Assembly: GCF_963082655.1 (NCBI RefSeq)
Contig: NC_081553.1
Location: 150,460,990-150,524,989 of the forward strand
DNA length: 64,000 bases
Direction of reading: 5' to 3'
From: Stomoxys calcitrans
Taxonomy: Eukaryota > Arthropoda > Insecta > Diptera > Muscidae
The position numbers were made by a program, and so were the translations under genes. The notes below the pieces were generated by a model. That model worked only from the letters and a program-made list of their open reading frames with translations, searched no databases and was not told where the DNA came from. Below are positions 36,725 through 64,000 of the stretch, one piece after another (position 1 is the stretch's first letter; each line of letters starts with the position of its first letter).

Positions 36725-38115
36725 CTACGGAGGATATAGACATAGTGGTCAAGCGGACCACGAAGAGGCTGAATGACTCGTTTGTGTTAGCATGCTGTAG
36801 TGCCAAGCCAAGGGGCAAACAGCAACCGCCATGGTGTACCCCAGAGCTGGTTGGTCTAACGAAGGACTGCAGAAGTTCTTCAACGGAGCAAAAGCCACAA
36901 GAGCACCACGCGATTGGGACATCTATAAGGCAGAGTTAAGAAAATATAAGGGCGGGCTAAGAAAAGCTCAGAACCAATCTTGGGTAGAATTCTGCAGCTC
37001 CGTGGAGGTTACGTATTCTGTTCTGGAGACCTATTACTGTGGGGTATATTCAGAAGACGGAGGATGTATGGGCGATGTCTAGTGAGGAAACACTACTCGT
37101 TGATACACATTTCCTAGAATTTTCACCAACGGACAACGTAGTGCCAGAAAAGGTTGTCACTGGTATGCATTCGTCGGAGGCTGTTGGGGAAATTGTGTCT
37201 GAGCCGAAAATCCTTTGGACGATAAGAAGTTTCGACTCCTTTAAGTCGTCAAGCCCTGATGATGTATTACCGGTTAAATTACAAGCTGTGTCTGATAGAC
37301 TGGTTCCCTGGCTTAGGGAGATATACTCAGCTTGTATCAAAATATCATATATACCTGTGGGATGGAAAGACACGAAGGTCAATTTCATTCCGAAAGCAGG
37401 AAACCCCTACCACACGAAGGCGAAAGATTTTCGTCCTATAAGTTTGTCATTCTTTATGCTGAAGCGGCAGCAGCATGCATATAGTAAAGGCAAATTCACT
37501 GAAACAGCCATTCACGACCTAGTCGGCCACATAAAGGGTTCTCTCGCTGTCAAGCCATATACAATAGTAGCATTTCTTGACATTGAAGGTGATTTCAATA
37601 ATGTAAAACCGACGTCAATCATGAAGGAGTTGGAGTTTCTGACATCAACTCTACCATAAGAAAGTTTATTTATATTTTACTTACTAAAAGATGCATTACG
37701 GCAGGCTTGGGATCTGTGGATCTAAAAAGAAGGGTCAACAGAGGAACATCTCAAGGAGGTGAACTGTCTCCGCTACTTTGGAATACAGCCATTTACAATA
37801 TATTATTGTCTCTGGAAGAAAAAGGCGTAAAAGTGGTGGCGTAGGTTGATGACGTGACAATTGCTGTTAGGGCAAAGTTGCCCAGCACTCTATGAGATAT
37901 ATTTCAGGCAGCTCTATGTGCAGTGGAAAGTGTTCTAGGTATGAATCCGTGCAAGACAGAAGTAGTTCTTTTCAGCAGGATATACAAATTGCCTACTGTG
38001 GAACCTGTCTCCTTGGGTGGAGAGAATGTTCCATTTACAGAAAGCGCAAAATACCTGGGTGCTTTGCTGGACAGGAAATTGAACTACAAATCCAACATTT
38101 TGGAAAGGGCAAGAT
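36725..38115 (+). pseudogene. LINE-C ORF2 linker and RT, broken
   Basis: YKAELRKYKGGLRKAQNQSW (linker) is followed by the RT: PDDVLPVKLQAVSDRLVPWL, GWKDTKVNFIPKAG, DFRPISLSFFMLK, QQHAYSKGKFTETAIHDLVG and TIVAFLDIEGDFNNV. Near 37842 the tyrosine position of the YVDD box is a TAG stop, followed by VDDVTIAVR. A deletion next to FMLK removes part of the fingers. The frame changes near 36939, 37080 and 37659. Confidence 0.8.
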
Positions 38116-44854: not shown

Positions 44855-45275
44855 AAAAAAACAATTCTATAAGTTTGAAATAGGAAGGTACGCTTAGATA
44901 ATGTAAAAATATCCATTTGACTCTAACATTTATGAAATTTTCAACTGGTTGTCGATAACAGATCTTGGTAATGAGATAAAAACTTCGAAAAGGAACACAA
45001 AAACGATTTTATTGCAAAAAGTGATATAATTTAAAAAGGTAGAACACAAAACTGTCCATTATATATAAGCGTAGTTTCGTAGAGCCGAATCTTATATATT
45101 TTCCACCACGCATTAAAATTTTTCGGACGAGTTTACTCTTTAGACTAAACGGCCAAAGAATAGCTAATTGAAATAAGAATTTGGGCGCCAAGGGCCCAAG
45201 ATTTACATAGAAGTTGGATTTAAATGACTTACAACACATCCCGTTGAGGAAATATACAACGTAGATCTTCTATGG
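44855..45275. other. Non-coding stretch after the calreticulin-like exons
   Basis: I searched this stretch for the missing IPDP/KPEDW repeats of calreticulin and found none. No other gene or repeat was recognised. Confidence 0.5.
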
Positions 45276-45579
45276 TGTTGTTCTTGTAGCCACATTGCAT
45301 GTGGAGGTAGCAATCCTCATAAAACTCCTAAAGATGAGTAATCTCGTTCCGGTTCATAGGGCCGACCACTGCGTGTTATTTAAAGGCGACAAAAAAACTC
45401 GCCTTGTCATATCGAGCATCATAGGCACTCAGTATATAAGTAAGAGCCGGTGCCGCCCGGACTCTCACTGAGACTTTCGACTCGATACCGCTGATTGTCC
45501 GCGACTGCAGTTACAGCTACTCTGTATTCGAAGCATCTCACTATCCGCAACCTATCCGCCCGGTAGCTCTCAGCTGAGT
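45276..45579 (-). repeat. Possible further short element with TTGTTGTTGTAGC-like end
   Basis: The segment begins GTTGTTCTTGTAGCC, close to the TTGTTGTTGTAGCAG tail of SINE-B read in the same direction, and is GC-richer than its surroundings. CCGCCCGG occurs twice inside (about 45452 and 45557). No second copy is in the window, so calling it a repeat is an inference. Confidence 0.3.
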
Positions 45580-45585
45580 TTCTCG

Positions 45586-45683
45586 TTGTTGTTGTAGCAG
45601 TGTGTTATATACTGGGCACCCCATATCGATGAAGATCTCCATCGTGTCAATCCGGTACGTACAACCGCCATGGGATTGGGAGC
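45586..45683 (-). mobile_element. SINE-B copy a (short LINE-B derivative), diverged
   Basis: Read on the minus strand it goes from CAATCCCATGGCGG at the 5' end through GTACCGGATTGAC and CGATG...CATCG to ACACACTGCTACAACAACAAC, the same 5' block and tail as LINE-B with nothing between. TTCTCG at 45580-45585 and 45684-45689 may be the target duplication. Part of the P2 region of the candidate ribozyme fold is lost in this copy. Confidence 0.7.
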
Positions 45684-45690
45684 TTCTCGT

Positions 45691-45759
45691 GATAACTACA
45701 TATGACCACCACACAGATCGGAGCCGAAAGCTGCATCCTGTGTGGTCTTCATAGTTATC
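45691..45759. repeat. Long imperfect hairpin
   Basis: GATAACTACATATGACCACCACACAG (45691-45716, split here only as one arm) is complementary, with gaps, to CTGTGTGGTCTTCATAGTTATC (45738-45759), leaving a loop of about 21 nt. It lies directly beside SINE-B copy a. It could be a short foldback element or a remnant; nothing identifies it further. Confidence 0.5.
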
Positions 45760-46294
45760 CCGTATCGGGATATGGTGTCGCCATCATTAGTTAGGAGAAT
45801 ACCTGCTTTGAATAATGTTTCAGATGGTTTCGCAAGGATTTGAAGCTAGACATTCAGTGTCACAGTCAGACATGTTAACACGTGTGCCCAGGTTATTTAA
45901 GTGAAAACTGGTTTTTTTAAAAGAATAATTTTTAAGATGTGGCGCAGTAGTGGAATAGCGGCCTAAAACCAAACAACAATGGATTTTATTTTCTTTATTA
46001 AGATGGGAATATGTGGTCACTTATGTGTTATGTCGGGCTTACAATCTGCCTTACCAAAAAAAAACATCGCCGCTGAGGGTCAAATCCATCTCGGCACCGC
46101 TTTCGCATTACTTCGAGATGGCTCTAAAATGGTGCTTACGAAGAACGAAGTTCCATTTCATCGCTTGCGTCCGAGCACCCATCACTGTTTGTTTATTTGT
46201 TTTCAGTTTCATATACAACAAGATTTTAAATCTTATAATTAAAGTATGTGACTTTTGTTGTAATAATAAGATTTTTGATTTAATAATAAAATAG
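45760..46294. other. Non-coding stretch
   Basis: No protein family recognised. A weak tRNA-like box B appears on the minus strand near 45840 but without a consistent cloverleaf. Confidence 0.4.
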
Positions 46295-46336
46295 TCGCAT
46301 TTAATAAAATTATCTAATTTTTTTTATTAAATGCGA
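46295..46336. terminator. Perfect 15 bp stem-loop with AATAAA signals on both strands
   Basis: TCGCATTTAATAAAA (46295-46309) and TTTTATTAAATGCGA (46322-46336) form a perfect inverted repeat around 12 nt. AATAAA-type signals occur in both directions in and around it. It lies just past the 3' end of LINE-D copy 2 (minus), so it may serve polyadenylation, or be a foldback remnant. Confidence 0.4.
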
Positions 46337-46399
46337 TTTTTATAAACACAAATGAAACAAGTAGCCAAATTAATAAATAAGTTTCCTATCATAAGTAGA

Positions 46400-47811
46400 C
46401 AATTTTTAACATAAATACAAGGTAACAAGATTATTAGAAATATTCATATAAAGCTTTCTTAAAAGCATTTGCGTTGCCAATAAATTGAATATGGGGAGGC
46501 AGAGATTTACAAAGACGAATAACATTGTAGGAAAATTGCCATACAGATATCAGGAGACGGTAGCGAATAGGTACTTTACAATTATTCTACTAGATCTACC
46601 AATTTTAACTTTTGCGTGAAGATTTTCAGGACTTCTGTTGTACACTTACATTAAAAGTGTTCTCAAAAAAGTAAATCACCGAGTGCGATACCATGCAAAT
46701 TTTTAAAAGTTGAAACACTTGCATATCTCTTTTGATCATAGACATATATTATTATTATATAGACAGATATTTCCAACCGATTTCAACGTCTCGAGTCACA
46801 TTGACTAAACAACTTACAGCCAGATAGGAGTATAAGTACAAGATATGATTTCGCTAAAAGGGATCTGATGTTCTGTAGTGTGTATAAACGTGTTTTATAG
46901 AGTGTTCCTAACATTCCGAAGATTTTGCCTGTCGCTGATATGATATGGTCCTTCCATGTTAGTGTTTGATTAATAATAACACCAAAATTTTTTTGTTTTA
47001 TGTACCTGTTGATAGCGTTATTTCCAATTTGCAGAGGGTATTCGCACACCACTTCCTGGCAGCGGTTTGGAAAAAGAATGAACTTTGATTTATTTGGATT
47101 TATGTGCCGTTTGTTTTCCATAGCCCTCATGTTGATATATCTTTAGTTGGTGTTTAGCTTCTCTATTCCATGACATAGTTCTGACTTTGGGCAATTCAGA
47201 TAAATATGTTCATTGTCCGCATAGATTTAGATATTTGAATGTGTCAGTCTGGTTGGCAGTTCATTTATATACATACAAAACAGAAGCGGTCCCAGCTTCT
47301 GGCGTGTACGCATGAGAATTCAAATTAAGAATACATTGGAAATACATTCAATATGGACAGCATTGGACTATCTATTTGGTGATGGTAGATGATTTTATGA
47401 AATTTTCATTAATTTTGTCGCGATCCCCAAATTTTATTAGTGGTGTTTTTTTTTTTTTTTTTGCCAACACCTATTTCCCGTATAAATTTCCACTTCCTTT
47501 TTGTATTTGTAGCATTTTGAAATTTGTTGGCATAGTTGATTCTTTTGCTCCTCTGTGTCGCCTTGTTGACCTCAGACCTCAGTGATCGGAATTCTTCATG
47601 CAACTGGGGCATCTTAAACATTTTCCATCTCTTGAATGCAATATCTCTTTTGTTTATTAATTCTTTTATAGGTGGGTTAAACCAAATATTATATCTTCGA
47701 CTTCTTACACAAGACATTTGTTGTGGAACTGCACAATTCTGTAAATATCGCACTTTATAATTTAAAAATTCGAGTGGTTCATCAGCTAAAACCATGGCAA
47801 AATTTTCATTC
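46400..47811 (-). pseudogene. LINE-D copy 2 ORF2 linker and RT C-terminal part
   Basis: The linker reads SRRYNIWFNPPIKELINKRD and RKWKFIREIGVGKKKKK (47795-47410). The RT catalytic region is missing, and the text resumes at HINPNKSKFILFPNRC, KQKNFGVIINQTLTWKDHI and LLAKSYLVLILLSGCKLFS (47110-46810). It ends with HGIALGDLLF and a decayed CKSLPPHIQFIGNANAFKK (about 46530-46450), the typical SIRLWNSLP end. The loss of YADD means no activity. An 18-T run at 47445-47462 lies inside it. Confidence 0.75.
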
Positions 47812-47817
47812 CAATTT

Positions 47818-48059
47818 ATTATGTTTGGTCAAGACATATGTGGACCCGTGAACAAAGAAAGTTCATGTTATATTTATTTACAAAGGCAAAAATCATTTGA
47901 TCAATAAGGAAATTTGCTGTAAAAATGACGTATTCACCCACTTCTACACATTAATTGTAAAGCCAGATAATACCTATAAATTATTAATTGATAGTGAAAG
48001 CGTTCAAACTGGTAATTTGGAAGACGACTGGGATTTCTTACCGCCCAAAAAAATTAAAA
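47818..48059 (+). pseudogene. Copied piece of calreticulin exon 3 inside LINE-D copy 2
   Basis: This segment matches 44555-44795, the exon coding from IMFGPDICG to LPPKKIK, in the same orientation. I count about nine substitutions and one inserted T (in CCCGTGAAC against CCCGGAAC), which shifts the frame. Substitutions include Pro to Gln in the FGPD motif and Arg to Cys in EIRCK. Both breakpoints are inside the exon and carry no poly-A. On each side the minus-strand LINE-D sequence is directly adjacent (GCIYRPNKSIPYDSIT on one side, INWNENFAMVLADEPLEF on the other). Confidence 0.9.
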
Positions 48060-48061
48060 GT

Positions 48062-48475
48062 TATTGAGTCATACGGTATGGATTTGTTTGGTCTATAAAT
48101 ACATCCAAGAAGCAACTTGTGTGAATTTGCATTTGCTTCCACAAATATTGACTCTACTTTCTCATCCGTGTCTGATTTTGAACAACATCACACGGGATGT
48201 TGTTCCTAAAATAGATAACTCCACCTCCTAAGGAACATCTATCGTTTAGAAAAACAAACCATGTCCACCAATCATGCAATTCGTAAAAGCGGGGCTAAAC
48301 CAAGTTTCGGACACATAGATAATGTCGACTCCTGACGTTTCAAATATATTTCGAATTTCATCAATTTTTCTGAGTAGACTGCGCATTGATGTGGCAAATA
48401 TTCAAACCACTATTCTGCTTGGCTAGAATGCGAATCATATTCTTCAATCCGTCTCTGGAAATGCCTGTATTATTT
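48062..48475 (-). pseudogene. LINE-D copy 2 endonuclease N-terminal part
   Basis: Across frame changes the minus strand reads LNICHINAQS, VDIICVRNLV (normally CVSETW), LFFLNDRCSLGGGVIYFRN and GCIYRPNKSIPYDSIT. This is the start of an APE endonuclease, with the catalytic Glu position altered. It ends at the calreticulin piece, so the second half of the endonuclease is missing. Confidence 0.7.
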
Positions 48476-48599
48476 ATAGGTAACAGATTTTGGGAACGCG
48501 AGACACTTTAGATAAAGTTATGTATTTAATTTCTATAAACATTTTAGCAATGACAATATTAATAACAAAAATAATGTATTTATAAATAATAATAAAAAT

Positions 48600-49422
48600 A
48601 TTTATTTCAGTTTAAAGTATTGTGATTGAGAGGTTGATCGAAAAATATTCTACAAGTTAGAAAGGCTGTCGATTAATAAAGGTTCTCCATTTGTTGTAGG
48701 TTTCACATAAATTAAACCTTGGCATGAATATGTGGAATTCTCTTTAATGTGAGATTCTCTTTAAGTTGTATTCGGTGATCTGATGAAAAGCCATTTTGTT
48801 GCAGGAGTAAGGGACTTTTGACGTTTCTTTTAAATTGCGACAACGCCCTATGGAAATTATTTTTCAAATAAGGCGTAAGCATTTGAATTATAATTGTAGA
48901 ATCCTATAGTTGCTTATTTTTTGCTTTGCATTCGATAAATGCCTTTATACTGAGGAGTAGGTATATTTAAAGCGTTGCAAATACTATCGAATACAGTGCA
49001 CGAATTCTAGGGTTTATTAAAAGGGATGCCGTTAAAAAGCAGATCGCATGCAACAGATACATTTTCCTGCCCCTGTATTTGTGATTTCCATGAGAATATT
49101 TTTTCTCCCATGCTCTTGATTTTTTGCATTCGGTCTTTACCACAGAAATTCTTGCACATAGCGTTTTTATGCTTACCATGCTTGGCCACAATTTAGTCTA
49201 CTATCTTTTTGATATGTGAGACAACTCTATCCTCGCTTTCTTCAACATTACTTTTATTAGTTGCAGATGTTCTATGCATGTTGGTGAAGCGGGAGTTTTT
49301 GGGAGTCCCCTTTTGACTGATGCCGTTAGTTTCTCCATAATTTCACCTTGTAGCTTGTGGTTTGTTGCATTTATTACAGAGAGTATTTGGTTGTGGTTCT
49401 CATTCTTAACCTGATTTGACAT
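48600..49422 (-). pseudogene. LINE-D copy 2 ORF1, broken
   Basis: It starts MSNQVKNENHNQILSVINAT with a helix-rich N-terminal part to 49201 (stop). A Cys-rich part follows (SVACDLLFNG, 49060-49010). After that comes the block MLTPYLKNNFHRALSQFKRN and NGFSSDHRIQLKENLT (about 48870-48740), which corresponds to YFLKCYTGFRKRNNG and INENIT in copy 1. Several stops are present. Confidence 0.6.
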
Positions 49423-49439
49423 TTTTATATTGATTTTAA

Positions 49440-49864
49440 TTTTGTTGAGAAGAGATGCTTGATTGATTGCGTATGTGTTTGTAAGGTTGGTTTATTAGAA
49501 AATAAACAATGCTTTGTTTGGAAATGCCGGCTATGTCGTACAAATATTTTTTCTGATTTTACCAAGAACAACAGTTCAAATCAGAAAACATTGATCTTTT
49601 GCATTACACAAATGGACAAAGTTTTATACAGTGCCAATATGTAGTGATAAATTTAATAAACTGATAATATGAAATTAAATTACAGAGCCAATAAAAACAC
49701 GTCTGTCTCCCTCAACCATTGATCTTCATCTCAGTAGAGAGAAAAATAAGAGTTACACTTCCCCATTTTGTGCAATTATTTGAAAAAAAAACGATATGTT
49801 ATATTTAACATCCCCATGTCTCCTATATACAAATTTCGTGATATTTTGGCTAAGTTTTCTGTTT
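49440..49864. other. Non-coding stretch
   Basis: No gene or repeat recognised; AT-rich. Confidence 0.5.
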
Positions 49865-49917
49865 CGAGGATACTTTTTAGTTTTTAGATCGAACAACAAG
49901 TCGATTACTGGCTTAGG

Positions 49918-50020
49918 TTGTTGTTGTAGCAGTGTGTTGTGCACTGAGGCGACAGCCCTTGTCGATGAAGGAATCCATCGGGTCAATCCGGTACACAACC
50001 GGCTGCCATGGGATGGTTGT
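49918..50020 (-). mobile_element. SINE-B copy b with 10 bp target duplication
   Basis: CTGGCTTAGG at 49908-49917 and 50021-50030 directly flank 103 bp. On the minus strand the sequence runs from the LINE-B 5' block (CATCCCATGGCAGCCGG...) straight into the LINE-B tail (ACACACTGCTACAACAACAA). It is inserted in a LINE-A tail. No coding function is expected; it is mobilised, by inference, by LINE-B proteins. Confidence 0.85.
49951..50016 (-). ncRNA. Candidate HDV-like ribozyme in SINE-B copy b
   Basis: The same five helices as in copy c can be drawn: P1 with one mismatch, P2 GGCAGCC/GGCTGTC with a G-U pair, P3 GGT/ACC with a short loop, P4 CCGATG/CATCGA with a mismatched closing pair, and J4/2 CAAG. 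The changes keep P2 pairing but weaken P1 and P4. The fold was drawn by hand. Confidence 0.5.
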
Positions 50021-50094
50021 CTGGCTTAGGTGTATGTCCATAGTTGCATGGGACGGATTAATATCTGCACCCTCTTTTCAACCTTTCCTGGGCT

Positions 50095-50265
50095 CAGTTT
50101 CGTGGACCATCTCCCGTATGCTTCGTTCTCCCACCGTATCTGCCACTTTCTTGTAGTCTCATTTCTTATTTTCTTTCTGTAGTCTATGGTATTTAGTATC
50201 ATCGTCAAAAAAGGGTCTAATTTGATACTAAACCAGCACAACGGTAACGTTGGACAAAGGCATTC
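50095..50265 (-). pseudogene. R1-like LINE ORF2 C-terminal scrap
   Basis: The minus strand reads IRNETTRKWQIRWENEAYGR and WSTKLSP. This corresponds to the WQxRWxxxxxGRWTxxLIP motif that follows the RT in R1/LOA-type ORF2 proteins. Only this segment is present, next to the LINE-A tail. Confidence 0.6.
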
Positions 50266-50290
50266 ATACGTCATTTGTTTTAAAATAAAG

Positions 50291-50370
50291 TTTTACGGCC
50301 GTTTTCACAAAACATGAAATCTTTCAATTAAACCTATTTTAAAGCTACATTAGCCTCTTTTATCAAATGC
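50291..50370. repeat. Foldback MITE-like repeat, copy 3 (inverted, partial)
   Basis: The reverse complement contains TAATGTAGCTTTAAAATAGG and ATGTTTTGTGAAAAC, matching the interior and one end of the 7774-7880 element. The other end is not recognisable. Confidence 0.5.
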
Positions 50371-50573
50371 TTGTGGAAGTTTAATGCACAAAAAGATCAT
50401 TTCGTTTTCAGTCACAAAAAAACATTTTGTTAAAAAAAACTTCACTCAAAATATTTGTAAAACTTTCGCACAATCTTGTCCACGTAAAAATAGGTAACAG
50501 CTGGTAAAGTTTGGTCAGACGAAAAATTATTTTTTTACCATTGAAATCTACGTTATGGAATTGAACATAAAAC

Positions 50574-53034
50574 AATTGCTTTGTACGTGGTCAACAAGGT
50601 TTCTTTTTCTGCATCCCAAGTGCTGCCAGGACTTTTTGACTTTATCGCAAATTGCTGTGGCATGTGGGGAGAATGTGTAAGAGCTGTCAAATGTAGCGCC
50701 AAGTATTTTGGGACACTTGATTGTCGCAATCATTTCTCCATCAACCATCACAGTCAGCTCAGTATTCACCTCCCGCGTATTTGTAGTGAACAATGTGGCT
50801 GAAGATTTGGTAGATATCTTCAGATTTCTTGCAGCGAAATATCAAGTTCGTTGAGGTAGACGTTCAACCTATCGCAGATGTCAACAATGGGTGAGGGGCC
50901 TGATGCCATGATCGTTCAATCGTCCGCATATGATATGATCTCTATGCCGTCTGGAGGGGGTGGAATGGAGGATTGATAGAGGTTAAAAAGTGCCGGAGAT
51001 ATCACCCTACCTTGGGGAACTCCCTGTTTCACTCTACGGTGCTTCGACTTCTTATCGCTAAATTCCACAAATGACTGGCGACCACACATATAATTCGCGA
51101 CCCAGCGTTTCAGGCTTGGCTGGGGAGACGTGTTGGCGATGTCCTCAAATAATTTGGCATGACTGACCGTATCGGATGCCTTCAATAGGTCCAGTGCCAC
51201 GAGGACCGCTTTCACATGGCCTGGGCTGATTGCACTTTATTGGTGGTATTGGGGTCACCCTGCCCATTTTCCAGACATCGGGAACTATAAGAGTGTTCAA
51301 AGACAGGTTGAGAACAGTAGTAAGGTACTCAACTGCAGGTGAATCCAGATTCTTCAACTATAATGTAGATATTCCGTCGGGGCCCAACCCCTTGGATGAT
51401 TTGGCGCCACGGATGACATTCGTAACTTCGCCCACGGTAAATTGTGATGGCTGTTCATCGACTCGGAGACCACGAATACGGCAAATGGCTCCTTGCCCCG
51501 TCACTTTCGGGATGCACAATAAATTGACGGTTGAACAACCTGGCGCATCTCTTCGGATTAGTCACGGTTATTTCGCCAGAAGTGACTGAGGTCCTGTCAT
51601 CCCGTCTAACGGGGTTCGAAACCGGTGGCTAAGTTACATTGCTCCAAGTGTTCCATCCAAAAATTCCGCTTATGTTCGTTGACTACCCTGTTTATTTCCA
51701 GATTCAGCTCACTGATTTTGGCGTTAGTGGGGTCCATACAACGAATCCCATCACGGTCGTCTGCGAGTACCACTGCCTGCGCCGGGAAATTGGATCGCAC
51801 TTGGGGTATTCGACCGGCTGGTATAAAGCGAGCGGCTGCTGCGTAAATGATGCCTCGGACTTTCCTCTCGGCCACTAGCACATCCAAGGGGGGTGGCAGT
51901 TCACTGAAGCGGCGATTGATATACTCTTTGAAGCCAACCCAATCGGCCTTCTTCTGATTGATAAACGTCCGGCGCTCAGAGGTTATGAAGTCGTGTGGTC
52001 GGTCGATGGTGAGAATTATGGGGAGGTGGTCTGGATACGTCACTCAGGAGGTCAGGGAATGCAATGGAAATGTCTGGCGAGCTGCTCCACTTCTTAATCC
52101 TAGTGGGGGCCTTCTCATTCACCGTACACTACGTGGAGCCTTCAATCTGCTCTTTCAAAGCTATGCCACGCTGGTCGTTACCTAGGAGAGATTGCCATGA
52201 AGTATGATGCGCATTAAAGTCCCCTAGAACTAGACGATTATGGCCAGATAGTAACCCAGTTATGTCGGGGTTGTAAGTTTGGCTATTAATCGGGACACAG
52301 CTATCAACTGGCGGTATGTACACATTGTATAGCTCTATCTCGGCAGTACCGGACCTGACTGCTATCCTCATGTCCCTATATTGCACGGAATCACGAAGGC
52401 CAATCCCCCACTTCCATTCCTTGAGCGATCCTTACGTAGCACATTGTATCCATGACAACTGTGCAAGCTGCAGGTGTTGGTCAGGTTTGTCTCCTGGATT
52501 GCTGCGACCAATACATCCTTCTGGCTCATGACATCCACAATCTCATCGATCTTGCCACGTAGACCGTTGCAGTTTAGTTGCAAAAATGATACATTTCCCG
52601 GCAATTGCCTGGCAATATTTTGGCTGGGATGCTGCCGTTGTGTTTATTGTCGTACGGGAGAGGTCGGGAGGGTCACATAGTTCGACGACGACAACGCATG
52701 TGACCCACTGCTGGCTGTGTTCGCACAGCACCTTGCGACATATCCAGTGTGACTATACTCCCGTAGTAAGTGAGGCCAGAGCAAGATCGGAAATGTACCC
52801 ACTCCATGCACCGGTTACACCTCACCGACTGATGGTGGAGGCAGTTCTGGCAAACCGAACAGAACCAGGGTCCGGGGTTCTTTTCAATCCCGGCACGGAA
52901 CAGAAGCGTGCGGAGAAGGCACTCTGGGATGTGCCTCTCCCATGACGGAAAAAGACGAACAAGTACACTGAGGCGGCAGCCCTTGCCGATTAGGGGTTCC
53001 ATCGGGTCAATCTGGTGCGCACAACCGGCTACCA
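50574..53034 (-). pseudogene. LINE-B ORF of copy 2, broken, with intact N-terminus
   Basis: The ATG lies at 53034, inside the 5' structured block. The frame stays open through 46 or so residues (WERHIPECLLRTLLFRA) into GIEKNPGP (52868-52891) and the finger FCSVCQNCLHHQSVRCNRCM with CNRCMEWVHFRSC. After a frame change the endonuclease reads VSFLQLNCNGLRGKIDEIVD and LVLGDFNAHHTSW, the linker MTYPDHLPIILTIDRPHDF, and the RT VALDLLKASDTVSHAKLFED, QGVPQGRVISPALFNLYQSS and ISYADD (51215-50916). Frameshifts occur near 52700, 52370, 52130 and 51600. Confidence 0.8.
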
Positions 53035-53042
53035 TGGGATTG
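52975..53042 (-). ncRNA. Candidate HDV-like ribozyme at the 5' end of LINE-B copy 2
   Basis: Minus-strand sequence from 53042: CAATCCC, AT, GGTAGCC, GGT-loop-ACC, AGATTG, AC, CCGAT-loop-ATCGG, CAAG, GGCTGCC. P2 contains a T-G pair where copy c has C-G, so pairing is kept. P1 has one C-A mismatch. Confidence 0.5.
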
Positions 53043-53044
53043 TC

Positions 53045-53699
53045 AATGATAAGGAAAGTCATTTATATATAGCCGAGTGCAATCGGCGTCCTGAAGTGCG
53101 GCACCAGCAGGTTGGGTTAGTTCAGATAAGGCTTAAGTGGCATTCTTCCTCAGACTCACTTAGACGTTTTCGTATTGTTATGCCATAGGAACAGGAGAAG
53201 GAAGATGCCTTCCTGCCGTTGAAGATCGCTTTAAAAAGCCCTACCTCTTGCGAATGTTCACATCCGCTAAATCAGACAGGTTCTCAAAGAAATGAGAACG
53301 TAAAGTGAAACTCCTTCTGACTGCTAGTGCGGGACACACACACAGGTGTTCTTTAGCCTCCTCTTGTTCGATGTGCATACAACTTCTGCAAAAGTCGTTG
53401 CAGGCAACCTTCAGTCTGTCAGCTTGTTTTCCGGTTAGATAGTGACCTGTCGTTACGGACATAATGACTGAGACGTCTGCTCTAGCCAATGACAGCAAAG
53501 CGGCTGACATCTGCAAGTCTAGAATAGGCCACAAAGTTTTGGAATGCTCACAGCCCCCTCTTTGTGGCCATCTGTCATTCCTTGTTCTTCGGGCCTGGTT
53601 CTGAAAACTTAGTTTACATGTCGCCAAAAGCATACCCACAGATTCCAGTATCCCTGGAATCTGTAGGGTAGTTCCAAGTCTTGGAAGCTCGTCCGTTTT
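53045..53699 (-). pseudogene. LINE-C copy 2, C-terminal and 3' part
   Basis: SLARADVSVIMSVTTGHYLT, CNDFCRSCMHIEQEE, FTLRSHFFENLSDLADVNIR and the 3' untranslated stretch are the end of the LINE-C ORF. The upstream continuation lies across the inserted LINE-B copy 1, at 57265 onward; the RNase H motif with HFTCSGCRATEISQ-like sequence abuts the LINE-B tail there. Confidence 0.8.
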
Positions 53700-53712
53700 A
53701 CAAGCAATCCCA

Positions 53713-53780
53713 CAATCCCATGGCAGCCGGTTGTATGTACCGGATTGACCCGATGAATTCCTTCATCGGCAAGGGCTGCC
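53713..53780 (+). ncRNA. Candidate HDV-like ribozyme in SINE-B copy c (best example)
   Basis: P1: CAATCC (53713-53718) with GGATTG (53742-53747). J1/2: CAT. P2: GGCAGCC (53722-53728) with GGCTGCC (53774-53780). P3: GGT (53729-53731) with ACC (53739-53741), 7 nt loop. P1.1: possibly GT in that loop with AC (53748-53749). P4: CCGATG (53750-53755) with CATCGG (53764-53769). J4/2: CAAG (53770-53773), whose C would be the catalytic cytosine. Helix order and the P3, P4 and J4/2 sizes match the HDV double pseudoknot as known from HDV and from R2 and L1Tc ribozymes. P1 is 6 bp instead of 7, and the first base is C and not the usual G. Confidence 0.6.
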
Positions 53781-53818
53781 GCTTCAGTGTACCACACACT
53801 GCTACTACAACAACAACA
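53713..53818 (+). mobile_element. SINE-B copy c, inserted in the first bases of LINE-B copy 1
   Basis: ACAAGCAATCCCA at 53700-53712 recurs at 53819-53831, giving a 13 bp target duplication made partly of LINE-B copy 1's own first bases. Between them lie about 106 bp: the LINE-B 5' block (to 53780), a short link (CTTCAGTGTACC) and the tail ACACACTGCTACTACAACAAC. It is therefore a separate insertion and not part of the LINE-B transcript. Confidence 0.85.
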
Positions 53819-53823
53819 ACAAG

Positions 53824-53890
53824 CAATCCCATGGCAGCCGGTTGTACGCAACGGATTGACCCGATGGAATCTTCATCGGCAAGGGCTGCC
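53824..53890 (+). ncRNA. Candidate HDV-like ribozyme at the 5' end of LINE-B copy 1
   Basis: P1 CAATCC (53824-53829) with GGATTG (53853-53858), P2 GGCAGCC (53833-53839) with GGCTGCC (53884-53890), P4 CCGATG (53861-53866) with CATCGG (53874-53879), J4/2 CAAG. P3 can form as GTTG/CAAC (53841-53844, 53849-53852): two changes relative to copy c, and still paired. The P4 loop is one nucleotide shorter. The ATG in J1/2 (53831-53833) is the presumed ORF start, frame-shifted here by that loss. Confidence 0.55.
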
Positions 53891-53955
53891 GCCTCAGTGT
53901 ACGTGTTCGTCTTTTTTCGTCATGGGAGAGGCACATCCCGGAGTGCCTTCTCCGT

Positions 53956-55812
53956 ATGCTTCTGGTCCGTGCCGGGATTGAAAAGAACCCCGGACCCTGG
54001 TTCTGTTCCGTTTGCCAGAAGCGCCTTCATCATCGGTCAGTGTCGGTGAGGTGTAACCGGTGCTTGGAGTGGGTACATTTCCGTTCTTGCTCTGGCCTAA
54101 CTTCGCTACGGGAGTATAGTCATACTGGCTATGTCACCAGGTGCTGTGCGAACATAGCCAGCAGTGGGTCACAAGCGTCGCCTTCGGCGTCCTCGTCGTC
54201 GGACTATGTGACCCCCCCGACCTCTCCCGTACGGCAATTTATGCAACGACAGCACCCTAGCCCTACTATTGCCAGGCCACTGCCGGGAAGTGTATCGTTC
54301 TTGCAGTTAAACTGCAATGGACTGCGAGGCAAGATTGATGAGATTGTAGATTTCATGAGTCGGAAGAGCATGTCGGTCGCAGCGATCCAGGAGACAAAGC
54401 TGACTAACACCTGCAGCTTGCACAGTTGTCACGGCTACAATGTGCTACGTAAGCATCGCTCAAGGAATGGAGGTAGGGGATTGGCCTTCGTTATACACCA
54501 TTCCGTGCAGTATAGACCTATCTCGCCTGCGCTTGACGCTAGTGACCCATACATGGAATGTATGGGGGTGGCAGTCAGGTCTGGTTCTGCCGAGATAGAG
54601 ATATACAACGTGTATATACCGCCGGTTGGCAGCTGTGTCCCGATTAATGGCCAGGCCTACAGCCCCGACATAAGTGGGTTGCTATCTGGCCATAGTCGTC
54701 TGGTTCTAGGGGATTTTAATGCACATCACTCGTCATGGCATTCTCCCCTAGGTAACGACCAGCGTGGCATAGCTTTGGCAGAGCAGATAGATGGCTCCAC
54801 GTTTTGCACGGTGAATGAGGATGCCCCCATTAGGATTACGAGGAGGTGCAGCAGCTCGCCAGACATCTCTATCGCATCCCCTGATCTCCTGAGTGACGTA
54901 TCCTGGCAAGCCGTCATCTCTTTGGGGTCAGACCACCTCCCCATAATCCTCACCATCGACCGACCACCCGACTTCATAACCTCTGAGCGCCGGACGTTCA
55001 TCAATTACAAGAAGGCCAATTGGACTGGCTTCAGAGAGTATACCAATCGCCGCTTCAATGAACTGCCACCCCCCTCTGATGTGCTTATGGCCGAGAGGAA
55101 ATTCCGAGACATCATCAACGCAGCAGCCGCTCGCTTTATACCAGCCGGTCGAATACCGCAAGTGCGACCCAATTTTCCGGCGCAAGCAGTGGTACTCGCA
55201 GACGAGCGTGATGGGATTCGTGCTATGGACCCCGCTAACCCCAGAATCAGCGAGCTGAATCTGGAAATAAACAGGGTAGTCAACGAACATAAGCGGAATT
55301 TGTGGCTGGAACACTTGGAGCAATGTAACTTAGGCACCGGTGCAGGCAAACTGTGGGCCACTGTTAAGTCTCTCTCGAACCCCGGTAGACGGGACGACAG
55401 GACCTCAGTCACTTTTGGCGAGATAACCGTGACTGATCCGAAGAGATGCGCCAGGTTGTTCAACCGTCAATTTATTGCGCATCCCGAGAGAGACAGGGCA
55501 AGGAGGAGAGCCATTCGCCGTATTCGTGGTCTCCGAGCCGATGAACAGCTATCACAATTTACCGTGGGCGAAGTTACGAATGTCATTCGTGGCGCCAAAT
55601 CTTCCAAGGCGGTGGGCCCCGACGGAATCTCTACATTGATGCTGAAGAATCTGGATTTACCTGGAGTTGAGTACCTTACTACTGTCCTTAACCTGTCATT
55701 GAACACTCTTATAGTTCCCGATGTCTGGAAAATGGGCAGAGTGATCCCGCTACTGAAGCCTGGTAAAGACCCGAGTTTGGGGGAGTCGTACAGACCGATC
55801 TCCCTTCTCTAA
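53956..55812 (+). pseudogene. LINE-B ORF of copy 1, first part (2A-like, PHD-like finger, endonuclease, RT start)
   Basis: Residues 7-14 are GIEKNPGP, one residue off the 2A consensus D-(V/I)-E-x-N-P-G-P. The finger FCSVCQKRLHHRSVSVRC and CNRCLEWVHFRSC (residues 16-45) fits a PHD-like C-C-C-C-H-C pattern. The endonuclease spans about 115-330 (FLQLNCNGLRGKIDEI, AIQETKL, LVLGDFNAHHSSWHS, LGSDHLPIILTIDRP). RT begins about residue 540 (SSKAVGPDGISTLMLK, WKMGRVIPLLKPGKD, ESYRPISLL). The frame ends at TAA 55810-55812, where copy 3 has TCA. The true start is probably the upstream ATG at 53831, lost from frame by a one-base deletion. It is a reverse-transcribing enzyme of the element, inactive here. 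Confidence 0.85.
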
Positions 55813-57235
55813 CCAGTGGCTAAGACGCTTGAGGCATTACTCCTCCCGAGCCTCGTAGGAGAATTTCCATTCGCCGAGCATCAACACGGATTTCGGAGAC
55901 TGCAAATTATTTGAGGACATCGCCAACACGTCCCTCCAGCCAGGCCTGAAACGTTGGGTCGTGAATTATCTGTGTGGCCGCCAGTCATTTGTGGAATTTA
56001 GGGATAAGAAGTCAAAACACCGTAGAGTGAAACAGGGAGTTCCCCAATGTGGGGTGATATCACCGGCTCTGTTTAACCTCTACCTATCCTCCATCCCACC
56101 TCCTCCAGACGGCATAGAGATCGTATCATATGCGGACGATTGTACGATCATGGCATCAGGCCCCCCACCCATTAATGACATCTGCGATAGGTTGAACGTC
56201 TACCTCAACGAACTTGCCTCATATTTCGCTGCAAGAAATCTGAAGATATCCGCCACCAAATCTTCAGCCACACTGTTCACTACAAATACGCGTGAGGTGA
56301 ATTCTGAGCCGACTGTGATGGTCGATGGAGAAATGATTCCGACCATCAAGTGTCCCAAAATACTTGGCGTCACATTTGACAGCTCCTACACTTTCTCCCC
56401 ACATGCCACAGCAATCTGCAATAAAGTCAAAAGTAGAAACAAGGTCCTCAAGTCACTCGCTGGCAGCACTTGGGATGCAGACAAAGAAACCTTGTTGACC
56501 ACGTACAAAGCAATTGGCCGGTCTGTGGTAAGTTATGCAGCGCCAGTGTGGTCACGTCAACTTTGTGACATGCAGTGGAATAATATTCAGATCTGTCAGA
56601 ATGCCGCCCTCCGAACTGCGACGGGCTGTCTCCTTAGTTCTCATGTGGACCATCTCCATCAGGAGACAAAGATCCTACCAGTGCGAAGACATAACTACAT
56701 GCTGTCTAAGCAATACCTTTTGGGCTGTTTTCGCAGAAATCATCCAAATCATCATCTTGTGGATAGATACCCACCGCCCAGAAGCCTTAAGGTAGATCTA
56801 CACGATCTAGAGCGTGAGGTCCAGCGCTACAAGAGAGAACCTCTAGATCAAGCGGCATATCAAGCGGGTCTGAACAACATTCATGCAGGCACGGTAGGAG
56901 ACGCGTTAATTGGCTACCGGGTGAATGTAGTCCTTGGAGAACGACCGCCACCCATTGCACCCGAAGAAATCGACCTCCCCCGGCAAACCAGAGTGGTTCT
57001 GGCTCAATTACGTTCCGGCAGATGCAGCCGCCTCAATTCCCACAGAGCTAGGATTGATGCCGACGTGCAAGATGTATGTCCCGATTGTAACCAGGGACCG
57101 CACGATACACGTCACCTGTTTAACTGCCCGGCCAGACCCACTCGACTCAGACCCAGATCCCTGTGGACGCACCCCATCTTAGTCGCGGAGTTCCTGGGTC
57201 TTGACACTCAACAGAATCAAGCAGACGAAAAATAG
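55813..57235 (+). pseudogene. LINE-B ORF of copy 1, second part (RT and C-terminal Cys/His motif)
   Basis: After the stop the RT continues to FRRL at about 55905. There 131 bp present in copy 3 are missing, including ALDLSKAFD with the first catalytic Asp. From 55961 a 424-codon frame has QGVPQCGVISPALFNLYLSS, SYADDCTIMASG, CPKILGVTFDSSYTFSPHAT and the end CPDCNQGPHDTRHLFNCPAR. YADD is intact but motif A is gone, so this RT cannot work. Confidence 0.9.
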
Positions 57236-57264
57236 TACACAATAAACTGCTACAACAACAACAA

Positions 57265-57730
57265 TTCCCTGTGATATCTCTGTGGCCCGGCACCCAGAAC
57301 AGGTGAATTTTGAACCGTTCAGCTATCTCGTTGAGAGATCAGCGACAGTCGAGGGCGGTTTTTGTGTTCAGAAATACGTTCTCCAGGGATTTAATGGCTG
57401 CTTGGCTGCCTGAGAAGATATTTATACCAATCGTCGTAATGGCATTATATCTTAGCCATTCAACGACTTCCTTAATTGCAAAGATCTTCGCTTGATACAC
57501 ACTGCAGTGGTCGGGTAACCTTTTCGATATGACCGGTTCTAGATCTTTAAAGCATACCCCAAATACTACCTGGTCATCTAGTTTGGAACCATCCGTATAA
57601 AAGTTTATGTAAATTCAATTACCAGGTATATCGAAGTTCCAATCGGTTCTATCAAGAATAGTGGTACAGTTCTTTTTATCAAAAAGCGGCTCAGGTAGTG
57701 TGCCTGGAACATTGAATATTCGGGTATGAT
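57265..57730 (-). pseudogene. LINE-C copy 2, RNase H part
   Basis: The minus strand encodes the WV-G-H region (LFWVPGHRDI-type, 57265-57300), AVYQAKIFAIKEVVEWLRYN-like sequence (57490-57430) and the LFDKKNCTTIL stretch (57700-57650), aligned with 38500-38920 of copy 1. It is cut on the left by LINE-B copy 1 and on the right by an inverted-repeat-bounded insert. Confidence 0.75.
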
Positions 57731-58266
57731 CTTGGTTTCGTTTCGCAGGCTAATATGAAAAATATTTGAAATGGGGTGAGGTAATAGATTTCACCAAAAA
57801 ACTGTGAAACCATTTCACTAAAAATTTATGGTGTAAGCAATGTAAATTCCTCCTTATACTGAAAATACACCTTAAAATCACAAAACAACTGTTGAATAAC
57901 CACTTTTGGGTTGTTTTTTATTTTGGGTTGTTTTTTATTTGTGTCATTAGTTTTTGGGTTAAAAATTAACTTCAGTGTGTGCTAAATTGAGATTAAAAAG
58001 AAAAACATCTTCAATTTGATCTCAACAAGACAGCCAACAGGAAAGCCGCAGGCATTTCGAAATTTCCAAAAAATTAAAACAATTACAAGTCCAAGGGTTT
58101 CTTCTTTTTTCTATCTTTTGTTTACCTTTGTTTCTGTAAATTGTATGCATTTGCAGGCAATGTTTGATTTTTTCGAAAGAATTATTTCGTGTGCATTGGC
58201 GGTCACGTAAATATTTATTTGGTGAAACGAATGTGAAAAGGGAAAACTTTTTTTGGCGAAACCAAG
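57731..58266. mobile_element. Candidate non-autonomous DNA element with terminal inverted repeats
   Basis: CTTGGTTTCG (57731-57740) and CGAAACCAAG (58257-58266) are perfect 10 bp inverted repeats (12 of 13 if extended outward). A second inner pair, TTTCACCAAA near 57791 and TTTGGTGAAA near 58219, lies inside. LINE-C homology stops and resumes at the two ends (compare 38440-38500). There is no transposase and no clear target duplication. The superfamily is unknown. Confidence 0.5.
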
Positions 58267-60997: not shown

Positions 60998-61039
60998 GTT
61001 GTTGTTGTTGTTGTGGTTGTTGTAGCAGTTTATTGTGTA

Positions 61040-62080
61040 CTATCTTTCGTCTGCTTGATTCTGTTGAGTGTCAAGACCCAGGAACTCCGCGACTAAGATG
61101 GGGTGCGTCCACAGGGATCTGGGTCTGAGTCGAGTGGGTCTGGCCGGGCAGTTAAACAGGTGACGTGTATCGTGCGGTCCCTGGTTACAGTCGGGACATA
61201 CATCTTGCACGTCGGCATCAATCCTAGCTCTGTGGGAATTGAGGCGGCTGCATCTGCCGGAACGTAATTGAGCCAGAATCACTCTGGTTTGCCGGGGGAG
61301 GTCGATTTCTTCGGGTGCAATGGGTGGCGGTCGTACTCCAAGGACTACATTCACCCGGTAGCCAGTTAACGCGTCTGCTACCGTGTCTGCATGAATGTTG
61401 TTCAGACCCGCTTGATATGCCGCTTGATCTAGAGGTTCTCTCTTATAGCGCTGGACCTCACGCTCTAGATCATGTAGATCTACCTTAAGGCTTCTGGGCG
61501 GTGGGTATCTATCCACAAGATGATTTGGATGATTTCTGCGATAACAGCCCAAAAGATATTGCTTAGACAGCATGTAGTTATGTCTTCGCACTGGTAGGAT
61601 CTTTGTCTCCTGGTGGAGGTGGTCCACATGAGAACTAAGGAGGCAGCCCGTCGCAGTTCGGAGGGCGGCATTCTGACAGATCTGAATATTATTCCACTGC
61701 GTGTCACAAAGCTGACGTGACCACACTGGCGCTGCATAACTTACCACAGACCGGCCAATTGCTTTGTACGTGGTCAACAAGGTTTCTTTGTCTGCACCCC
61801 AAGTGCTGCCAGCGAGTGACTTGAGGACCTTGTTTCTACTTTTGACTTTATTGCAGATTGCTGTGGCATGTGGGGAGAAAGTGTAGGAGCTGTCAAATGT
61901 GACGCCAAGTATTTTGGGACACTTGATGGTCGGAATCAATTCTCCATCGACCATCACAGTCAGCTCAGAATTCACCTCACGCGTATTTGTAGTGAACAGT
62001 GTGGCTGAAGATTTGGTGGCGGATATCTTCAGATTTCTTGCAGCGAAATATGAGGCAAGCTCGTTGAGGTAGACGTTCAA
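61040..62080 (-). CDS. LINE-B ORF of copy 3, C-terminal part (after the frame break)
   Basis: 346 codons: LNELASYFAARNLKISATKS, KCPKILGVTFDSSYTFSPHA, STWGADKETLLTTYKAIGRS and the terminal CPDCNQGPHDTRHLFNCPAR, RSLWTHPILVAEFLGLD. This is the RT thumb and a Cys/His motif probably binding RNA or DNA. It matches the end of copy 1 with only scattered changes. It is followed by a stop, AATAAA (in ACACAATAAACTGC) and the tail. Confidence 0.85.
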   Translation of the reverse strand: MNVYLNELASYFAARNLKISATKSSATLFTTNTREVNSELTVMVDGELIPTIKCPKILGVTFDSSYTFSPHATAICNKVKSRNKVLKSLAGSTWGADKETLLTTYKAIGRSVVSYAAPVWSRQLCDTQWNNIQICQNAALRTATGCLLSSHVDHLHQETKILPVRRHNYMLSKQYLLGCYRRNHPNHLVDRYPPPRSLKVDLHDLEREVQRYKREPLDQAAYQAGLNNIHADTVADALTGYRVNVVLGVRPPPIAPEEIDLPRQTRVILAQLRSGRCSRLNSHRARIDADVQDVCPDCNQGPHDTRHLFNCPARPTRLRPRSLWTHPILVAEFLGLDTQQNQADER

Positions 62081-64000
62081 CCTATCGCAGATGTCATCAA
62101 TGGGTGGGGGCCTGATGCCAGGATCGTACAGTCGTCCGCATATGATACGATCTCTATGCCGTCTGGAGGAGGTGGGATGGAGGAAAGGTAGAGGTTAAAC
62201 AGAGCCGGAGATATCACCCCGCCTTGGGGAACTCCCTGTTTCACTCTACGGTGTTTTGACTTCTTATCCCTAAATTCCACAAATGACTGGCGACCACACA
62301 GATAATTCGCGACCCAACGTTTAAGGCCTGGCTGGAGGGACGTGTTGGCGATGTCCTCAAATAATTTGGCATGGCTGACCGTGTCGAATGCCTTCGATAG
62401 GTCCAATGCCACGAGGACCGTCCTATCACATGGCCTGGGTTGATTGAAGCCGCGGCAAATGTGTGTGGTGATGGCATGCAAAGCTGTTGTTGTGCTGTGC
62501 AGTCTCCGAAAACCGTGTTGATGCTCGGCGAATGGAAATTCTCCTACGAGGCTCGGGAGGAGTAATGCCTCAAGCGTCTTAGCCACTGGTGAGAGAAGGG
62601 AGATCGGTCTGTACGACTCCCCCAAACTCGGGTCTTTACCAGGCTTCAGTAGCGGGATCACTCTGCCCATTTTCCAGACATCGGGAACTATAAGAGTGTT
62701 CAATGACAGGTTAAGGACAGTAGTAAGGTACTCAACTCCAGGTAAATCCAGATTCTTCAGCATCAATGTAGAGATTCCGTCGGGGCCCACCGCCTTGGAA
62801 GATTTGGCGCCACGAATGACATTCGTAACTTCGCCCACGGTAAATTGTGATAGCTGTTCATCGGCTCGGAGACCACGAATACGGCGAATGGCTCTCCTCC
62901 TTGCCCTGTCTCTCTCGGGATGCGCAATAAATTGACGGTTGAACAACCTGGCGCATCTCTTCGGATCAGTCACGGTTATCTCGCCAAAAGTGACTGAGGT
63001 CCTGTCGTCCCGTCTACCGGGGTTCGAGAGAGACTTAACAGTGGCCCACAGTTTGCCTGCACCGGTGCCTAAGTTACATTGCTCCAAGTGTTCCAGCCAC
63101 AAATTCCGCTTATGTTCGTTGACTACCCTGTTTATTTCCAGATTCAGCTCGCTGATTCTGGGGTTAGCGGGGTCCATAGCACGAATCCCATCACGCTCGT
63201 CTGCGAGTACCACTGCTTGCGCCGGGAAATTGGGTCGCACTTGCGGTATTCGACCGGCTGGTATAAAGCGAGCGGCTGCTGCGTTGATGATGTCTCGGAA
63301 TTTCCTCTCGGCCACAAGCACATCAGAGGGGGGTGGCAGTTCATTGAAGCGGCGATTGGTATACTCTCTGAAGCCAGTCCAATTGGCCTTCTTATAGTTG
63401 ATGAACGTTCGGCGCTCAGAGGTTATGAAGTCGGGTGGTCGGTCGATGGTGAGGATTATGGGGAGGTGGTCTGACCCCAAAGAGATGACGGCTTGCCAGG
63501 ATACGTCACTCAGGAGATCAGGGGATGCGATTGAGATGTCTGGCGAGCTGCTGCACCTCCTCGTAATCCTAGTGGGGGCATCCTCATTCACCGTGCAAAA
63601 CGTGGAGCTATCTATCTGCTCTGCCAAAGCTATGCCACGCTGGTCGTTGCCTAGGGGAGAATGCCATGACGAGTGATGTGCATTGAAATCCCCCAGAACC
63701 AGACGACTATGGCCAGATAGCAACCCACTTATGTCGGGGCTGTAGGCCTGGCCATTAATCGGGACACAGCTGCCAACCGGCGGTATATACACGTTGTATA
63801 TCTCTATCTCGGCAGTACCAGACTTGACTGCTACCCCCATACATTCCATGTATGGGTCACTAGCGTCAAGCGCAGGCGAGATAGGTCTATACTGCACGGA
63901 ATGGTGTATAACGAAGGCCAATCCCCCACCTCCATTCCTTGAGCGATCCTTACGTAGCACATTGTAGCCGTGACAACTGTGCAAGCTGCAGGTGTTAGTC
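62077..64000 (-). CDS. LINE-B ORF of copy 3, endonuclease and RT, partial at window edge
   Basis: The frame is open from the window edge (LTNTCSLHSCHGYNV) through the endonuclease (LVLGDFNAHHSSWHS, LGSDHLPIILTIDRP) and RT (GPDGISTLMLK, ESYRPISLLSPVAKTLEAL, ALDLSKAFDTVSHAKLFED, QGVPQGGVISPALFNLYLSS, SYADDCTILASG). It then shifts at a C run near 62107-62111, which has five C against six in copy 1, and ends at 62077. Both RT catalytic motifs are intact. With that single base restored by a correct consensus it would join 61040-62080, so a sequencing or assembly error is possible. Confidence 0.85.
   Translation of the reverse strand, partial: TNTCSLHSCHGYNVLRKDRSRNGGGGLAFVIHHSVQYRPISPALDASDPYMECMGVAVKSGTAEIEIYNVYIPPVGSCVPINGQAYSPDISGLLSGHSRLVLGDFNAHHSSWHSPLGNDQRGIALAEQIDSSTFCTVNEDAPTRITRRCSSSPDISIASPDLLSDVSWQAVISLGSDHLPIILTIDRPPDFITSERRTFINYKKANWTGFREYTNRRFNELPPPSDVLVAERKFRDIINAAAARFIPAGRIPQVRPNFPAQAVVLADERDGIRAMDPANPRISELNLEINRVVNEHKRNLWLEHLEQCNLGTGAGKLWATVKSLSNPGRRDDRTSVTFGEITVTDPKRCARLFNRQFIAHPERDRARRRAIRRIRGLRADEQLSQFTVGEVTNVIRGAKSSKAVGPDGISTLMLKNLDLPGVEYLTTVLNLSLNTLIVPDVWKMGRVIPLLKPGKDPSLGESYRPISLLSPVAKTLEALLLPSLVGEFPFAEHQHGFRRLHSTTTALHAITTHICRGFNQPRPCDRTVLVALDLSKAFDTVSHAKLFEDIANTSLQPGLKRWVANYLCGRQSFVEFRDKKSKHRRVKQGVPQGGVISPALFNLYLSSIPPPPDGIEIVSYADDCTILASGPHPLMTSAIG

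Follow-up and report, generated by a model that had tools for sequence, protein, structure and literature searches.

A predicted HDV-type ribozyme at the 5′ ends of a LINE and a very short SIDE in the stable fly, Stomoxys calcitrans

HDV-like ribozymes are already known at the 5′ ends of LINEs and in SIDEs, including R2, R4, Dong, baggins and L1Tc (PMC3774820, PMC3414825, PMC4035085; statements citing these and other articles refer to selected passages of them). The L1Tc-type ribozyme cleaves before nucleotide 1 (PMC4035085). Because ribozyme-headed LINEs and SIDEs of the R2 and L1Tc types are known, the Stomoxys family described here is a probable addition to such elements, with an unusual active-site sequence.

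Five element 5′ ends and their fold

The window, that is, the whole stretch of 64,000 nucleotides analysed, is from the stable fly S. calcitrans, a muscid dipteran with a genome of 1.07 Gb. It holds five related 5′ ends: LINE D (53824, plus strand), LINE E (53042, minus), SINE c (53713, plus), SINE b (50016, minus) and a decayed SINE a (45678, minus). The last of these, which has lost most of its P2, was missing from the earlier list. Their features are as follows.

53700–53712, plus strand: left target duplication of SINE c, 13 nt, ACAAGCAATCCCA
53713–53818, plus strand: SINE c element, with a LINE-like 5′ end carrying the fold, a LINE-like 3′ tail and terminal (CAA)n
53713–53783, plus strand: whole HDV-like fold of SINE c, from sequence, descriptor, minimum free energy (MFE) structure and family covariance model (CM R1, 101.9 bits)
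53713–53718 with 53742–53747, plus strand: P1 of SINE c
53722–53728 with 53774–53780, plus strand: P2 of SINE c
53729–53731 with 53739–53741, plus strand: P3 of SINE c, with L3 at 53732–53738
53733–53734 with 53748–53749, plus strand: candidate P1.1 of SINE c
53750–53755 with 53764–53769, plus strand: P4 of SINE c, two more pairs being possible within its loop
53770–53773, plus strand: J4/2 of SINE c, CAAG, with a putative catalytic-type C at 53770
53819–53831, plus strand: right target duplication of SINE c, which takes in nt 1–8 of LINE D
53824–57264, plus strand: LINE D element, with 2A-like AGIEKNPGP, Cys/His-rich stretch, APE endonuclease and RT; 3′ end CTGCTACAACAACAACA
53824–53893, plus strand: 5′ HDV-like fold of LINE D, P3 changed to GGT/AAC, with P1, P2 and P4 intact (CM 93.7 bits)
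53956–55812, plus strand: main open frame of LINE D, 618 aa, start MLLVRAGIEKNPGP, with an Exo_endo_phos_2 match
52972–53042, minus strand: 5′ HDV-like fold of LINE E, with a U-G pair in P2, one P1 mismatch (C-A) and a shortened P4 (CM 84.9 bits)
49948–50016, minus strand: 5′ HDV-like fold of SINE b, with a G-U pair in P2, one P1 mismatch, a basal C-A in P4 and an L3 of 5 nt (CM 86.2 bits)
45615–45678, minus strand: degenerate copy a, P2 mostly deleted (CM 55.5 bits)

The first 71 nt of the consensus read P1 CAATCC, J1/2 CAT, P2 GGCAGCC, P3 GGT, L3 TGTACGT, P3′ ACC and P1′ GGATTG in the 5′ half, followed by J1.1/4 AC, P4 CCGATGGA, L4 TTCC, P4′ TTCATCGG, J4/2 CAAG, P2′ GGCTGCC and a remaining GCC. 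Both the consensus and copy c have the helix order P1-P2-P3-P1′-P4-P2′ with a pseudoknotted P1. Every strand that the original prediction had quoted for copy c was found at 53713–53780 in the order claimed, and the proposed fold is real. The unconstrained MFE structure of copy c and of the consensus consists of exactly P2, P3 and P4, leaving both P1 strands unpaired and able to pair together. The MFE of copy D likewise gives P2, P3 and P4, but with P3 re-paired as GTTG/CAAC; E, b and a, three of the five window copies, gave other folds. The earlier description of D, E and b as keeping P2 and mostly keeping the remaining helices was fair but generous: P2 is retained, with a U-G pair in E and a G-U pair in b, but each copy has changes in P1, P3 or P4.

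P1 adjoins P3 downstream, comprises 6 bp and opens on the first base of the element. Its length had been entered as a caveat, which loses force against a published range in which the P1 of R2 typically has 6 or 7 bp, and the P1–P1′ spacing of the consensus, 23 nt, is the shortest reported for R2 (PMC3774820). A second caveat, C as nucleotide 1, likewise has a published precedent, in a trypanosomatid relative, though C1 forms a mismatch with A39 there and cleavage is poor (PMC4035085). A P1 shifted to AATCC/GGATT was rejected, as the element begins at C1.

In HDV-like ribozymes, P1.1 consists of 1–2 bp, usually C-G, and J4/2 has the form CNRA. A candidate P1.1, overlooked in the original prediction, lies in the Stomoxys fold where L3 positions 2–3 (GU) are complementary to the AC that follows P1′; its two pairs, G21-C37 and U22-A36, differ in base identity from the C-G type. 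J4/2 is CAAG, with A as its final base in 7 of 98 rows; theta ribozyme searches left the last J4/2 position free (PMC10879173). U is the first and G the sixth nucleotide of L3, so that the letters required of an HDV-type L3 are present; judging by these letters, they may form the reverse wobble that is a conserved feature of HDV-like ribozymes (PMC3774820).

An ATG is found within the fold, in J1/2-P2 (CCCATGGCAGCC; window 53713–53780 and 52972–53042). In copy E the frame is open from this ATG through the 2A-like motif into the ORF. An ORF start at the fold ATG was dropped as a candidate: it is in frame with the 2A-like motif in copy E, but out of frame in LINE copy L094.

The short element and the LINE coding region

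As judged from its sequence matches, the short element called a SINE is a SIDE as PMC3414825 uses the term, because both of its ends match LINE ends: it consists of about 80 nt of the LINE 5′ end joined to about 25 nt of the LINE 3′ end, without the coding region. SINE b is 100 nt long (49917–50016) and SINE c 106 nt. SINE c aligns with the LINE 5′ end over its first ~80 nt (91% across 80 nt), and its last 19–23 nt match the LINE 3′ ends at 57246–57264 (94%) and 61029–61007 (91%). A tRNA-derived SINE is unlikely; ARAGORN predicted no tRNA in 45000–58000, and SIDEs as a class do not depend on polymerase III for transcription. Target duplications of the SIDE are mostly 8–14 nt and flanks vary between copies. 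SINE c was inserted into the 5′ end of LINE D, since the right copy of its 13-nt duplication extends over nt 1–8 of LINE D. First-look searches with three queries returned 3,332, 3,232 and 1,252 candidates (40 scored each), which are not copy numbers.

Among loci L001–L058, 31 head-to-tail pairs were seen (e.g. L031:1499–1670 and L055), a number that gives no frequency, the search query having favoured such pairs; in some, one copy has inserted beside or within the 5′ end of another. A target duplication surrounds the whole dimer in two SINE dimers (L031 and L055), with a third (L007) ambiguous. In several of the head-to-tail pairs, (CAA)n is fused directly to C1. The dimers look as if reverse transcriptase had jumped from the 5′ end of one RNA onto the tail of another.

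LINE D has APE endonuclease and RT domains by Pfam, and a 2A-like AGIEKNPGP and a Cys/His-rich stretch as read from the translation. It is internally damaged, with its frame broken at about 55.8–55.9 kb. L1Tc/ingi-type LINEs have an RNase H domain after the RT and an N-terminal 2A peptide; Pfam found no RNase H in two scanned frames of the damaged LINE D. In the genome, 44 of 45 RT matches to the protein of a relative (P0021) are without a stop, a proportion biased towards quality because the 45 are the best of 49,749 candidates. The same protein was used to look for other LINE families, but all 15 loci fetched from the 45 best matches were the same LINE. The best named relatives come from Musca domestica (70% identity), Cochliomyia and Lucilia sericata (59%), Calliphora (58%) and Bactrocera dorsalis (56%).

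The motif AGIEKNPGP of this family, LINE-B, recurs as AGIE(P/K/T)NPGP in relatives P0017, P0019 and P0021, ahead of the Cys/His-rich stretch. As a sequence, AGIE(K/P/T)NPGP appears to resemble a 2A ribosome-skipping peptide, the consensus of which has D where this motif has G. In the window it lies at 52869–52895 (minus strand) and 53956–53997 (plus strand), and the relatives that carry it include one named from Diaphorina citri.

Other LINE sequences were also seen in the window. On the minus strand, 61000–64000 is apparently another copy of the same LINE, which has a (CAA)n 3′ end at about 61000–61030 and runs past the window edge. Pieces of other, more distant LINE families lie at 3133–4530, 33763–34402, 37198–38072 and 40949–43010, mostly with 25–40% identity to LINE-B relatives. 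Pattern and protein scans of viral contigs found no relative. A scan of genome contigs yielded one distant LINE (L059, 24% identity) on a 7.7-kb contig of a Chromatiales MAG; this eukaryotic-type LINE protein in a bacterial MAG is probably contamination, and the loose descriptor detected no fold in it.

Element boundaries, conservation and rival readings

If a ribozyme frees the 5′ end, the element should begin with the first paired nucleotide of P1. This coincidence, put forward in the original prediction, held up in LINE copies chosen by their protein. Fifteen LINE loci were fetched by protein rather than by 5′ end, and 13 of them retained the 5′ region in full. Of these 13, 12 have C at +1 and 11 start with CAATCCC. 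The exceptions start with AACGCCC (L095) and CTATCCC (L102), and two further loci (L099, L101) have no start. LINE junctions were read in 41 of 45 loci, and 36 of them were distinct; C occupies +1 in 35 of these and positions 2–6 agree in 35 or 36, though 30 of the 45 loci were picked with a query beginning at C1, which favours C at +1, and positions from 7 onwards were part of the search pattern. Position −1 at the same 36 junctions is random (G12, A7, T12, C5).

The SINE duplications agree with this boundary. A recognisable SINE tail was present in 66 of 113 distinct copies, and 28 of the 66 had an exact target duplication of at least 8 nt. These duplications end at C1 (offset 0) in 14 cases, overlap it through microhomology (+1 or +2) in five, and stop short of it at −1 in four and at −3 to −5 in five; 19 of the 28 thus start at C1 or overlap it by 1–2 nt, and four more carry one extra base. 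Permuting the right flanks yielded 1.6 duplications on average and never more than 5 in 200 trials, against the 28 observed. An earlier pass with a 7-nt rule placed 18 of 27 SINE duplications at 0 to +2. R2, which cleaves at its own 5′ end, has variable junctions with microhomology or extra bases (PMC3774820).

A sharp 5′ end would also be produced by a precise internal promoter. The main rival, which we regard as unlikely but worth weighing, is a structured, non-cleaving RNA, acting as a translation-start or RT-binding element, whose 5′ end is set by transcription initiating at C1 from an internal RNA polymerase II promoter. In its favour, the 5′ 77 nt of L1Tc (Pr77) are both promoter and ribozyme (PMC4035085), Rfam models return no match to the family, and cleavage is a prediction from the fold. 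A promoter, however, has no need for the edge of P1 to fall on the first base of the element, nor for an HDV-order double pseudoknot, the C of J4/2 or the U and G of L3. The (CAA)n-to-C1 fusions and dimer-wide duplications fit run-off of reverse transcriptase at C1, but a promoter start would explain them as well. Promoter and ribozyme can coexist.

Retention of the fold was assessed with a family CM built without P1, which gave 116 matches in 58 of 59 sources (L009 left out), three of them counted twice because L001 overlaps the window. The model made no use of the six P1 pairs, which are standard in 84/99, 88/99, 90/99, 90/99, 87/99 and 92/96 distinct rows. The C of J4/2 is retained in 94 of 97 distinct rows, the U and G of L3 in 98 and 93 of 99, and the candidate P1.1 pairs are standard in 93 of 99 (G21-C37) and 95 of 98 (U22-A36); in 14 of 98 rows the basal P4 position is C-A. 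Conservation is about 95% in most columns, paired or unpaired alike, with exceptions in L4 and at two L3 sites. Since loops are conserved about as well as helices, what the counts document is retention within a young family, not selection. Among near-identical LINE copies in the genome (best matches to D), 25 of 29 share one identical core with all helices intact; this set, in which 29 of 30 loci gave a row, includes D itself and some duplicates with shared flanks.

The covariation on which the original prediction had partly staked its case gave no support within the family. Over 41 rows, 93.9% of cells are paired, the same as in shuffles, and there is one two-sided change; this comparison has little power, since close similarity was the criterion for choosing the rows. 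Pairing survives in 7 of 9 distinct cases among widely shared transitions, compared with 19 of 40 among rare ones (p = 0.1, position 1 left out), while other cut-offs gave p = 0.19–0.22 and a control slid by +3 gave 6 of 9. Shared variants tend towards pair preservation, in the right direction but not significantly. At the P2 pair 11-67, nine A-U double variants were counted genome-wide in one exact context.

A second rival is that the fold is a ribozyme by descent, now inactive or very weak through its changed P1.1 and J4/2, with mobility relying on another source of 5′ ends. In its favour are the altered P1.1 pairs, the CAAG of J4/2 and the R2 junction of the sow bug, which still folds without cleaving (PMC3774820). 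We nevertheless consider this reading very unlikely: the fold is kept by near-identical LINE copies (25 of 29 identical cores), and the P1.1 letters differ yet are complementary. The short T1 pseudoknot pairs of HDV and CPEB3, which we read as P1.1, showed positive epistasis for compensatory swaps when screened by mutagenesis (PMC9901934).

Rfam contains HDV-type models. None of them matched the family at the gathering threshold or at E ≤ 10. The descriptor match sought at the outset was found in part: Rfam was silent, while our own descriptor, derived from this fold, was satisfied. In its strict form (P1 of 6, P2 of 6, P3 of 3 and P4 of 5 bp, J4/2 beginning with C), the descriptor has copy c as its sole match in the 64-kb window, from 53713 and from an alternative start at 53705 with the same core, which leaves one intact copy among the five in the window; shuffled controls gave six solutions in 5.888 million strand-bases. 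A near-identical descriptor (J4/2 of 3–5 nt, J1/2 of 1–12 nt), applied to dinucleotide shuffles of the consensus, gave 0 of 460,381 at starts 1–3 and two at starts 4–15. All these chance rates are post hoc, because the fold had already been seen when the descriptor was set up. A loose descriptor returned further window matches that resemble chance and were left unused. Chance complementarity, despite the post hoc descriptor and the lack of covariation, was rejected as extremely improbable on the shuffles (0 of 460,381 at starts 1–3) and on two agreements that lie outside the descriptor, the U and G of L3 and the complementarity of P1.1.

Predicted mechanism and comparison with known systems

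The 5′ ends of the LINE and the SIDE are, in our judgement, probably an HDV-type ribozyme that frees the RNA at C1. Under this ribozyme reading, the first 68–69 nt of both elements fold as an HDV-type double pseudoknot, and read-through transcripts from host DNA would cut themselves immediately 5′ of C1, with the C that opens J4/2 acting as a putative general acid. The cut would free an RNA beginning exactly at C1. The freed LINE RNA would then be translated, while the SIDE RNA would be reverse-transcribed in trans, recognised by the shared (CAA)n 3′ end. Insertion is predicted to proceed by target-primed reverse transcription, and priming of the second strand by microhomology may yield the slightly variable junctions. 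The analysis itself establishes the fold and its place at the element edge, the sharp 5′ end, the make-up of the SIDE and the existence of near-identical LINE copies with open frames; from these, cleavage, a catalytic C, co-transcription and mobilisation in trans are inferred.

If active, the family would represent HDV-like ribozymes with unusual P1.1 and J4/2 letters, and searches built on the usual letters would miss it, as Rfam did here, because those letters differ. Activity would also show that a retrotransposon can make do with a ribozyme of 70 nt plus a short 3′ tag, and transcribed insect DNA would then hold many potential self-cutting sites. A more far-reaching reading is possible but on balance doubtful: that in an active fly LINE with a 2A-like peptide the entire 5′ module consists of an HDV-type ribozyme whose P1.1 is swapped (G-C, U-A), and that this ribozyme has been captured by a ~100-nt SIDE made of little else but a 25–30-nt tail, possibly in thousands of copies. 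Were it true, the SIDE would be among the smallest ribozyme retrotransposons, and arthropod LINEs would have the architecture of ribozyme, 2A and APE-RT in common with L1Tc of trypanosomes, through shared descent or convergence.

Neither the Stomoxys family nor a ribozyme in Stomoxys retrotransposons was found among the listed titles and abstract openings, which came mostly from non-subscription journals. The family may already be described in Webb 2009, Ruminski 2011 or Repbase; possible novelties are the composition of P1.1 and J4/2, a SIDE this small and the combination with a 2A-like peptide.

Among known systems, R2 and the R2 and R2/R1 SIDEs of Drosophila are alike in having an HDV-fold ribozyme at the 5′ end of the element (PMC3774820, PMC3414825), in a P1 reported at 6–7 bp, compared with 6 bp in the Stomoxys family, and in 5′ junctions that vary and show microhomology or additional bases (PMC3774820). 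R2 SIDEs likewise combine the ribozyme with the 3′ end, but none in the passages of PMC3414825 compared is as small as the ~100-nt Stomoxys SIDE. The L3 of R2, as we parse it from a printed catalytic primer, is TCCTCGT against TGTACGT in Stomoxys, agreeing at four of seven positions, and the three that differ include both that would form P1.1 (PMC3414825). R2 is site-specific in 28S rDNA, whereas the flanks of the Stomoxys family differ by copy and its target duplications are mostly 8–14 nt. The baggins, Dong, R4 and L1Tc LINEs, compared by description only, are similar in their cleavage at the 5′ end of the element (PMC3774820). L1Tc and ingi differ in belonging to another kingdom of hosts, while the Stomoxys 3′ tail is (CAA)n and Pfam detects no RNase H in two frames of LINE D. 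L1Tc has an N-terminal 2A sequence, as the Stomoxys LINE appears to have in AGIEKNPGP. Like the Stomoxys LINE and SIDE with their predicted ribozyme, LINEs and short derivatives of trypanosomatids (L1Tc/NARTc, ingi/RIME and SIDERs) share a 5′ HDV-like ribozyme, of ~77 nt (PMC4035085).
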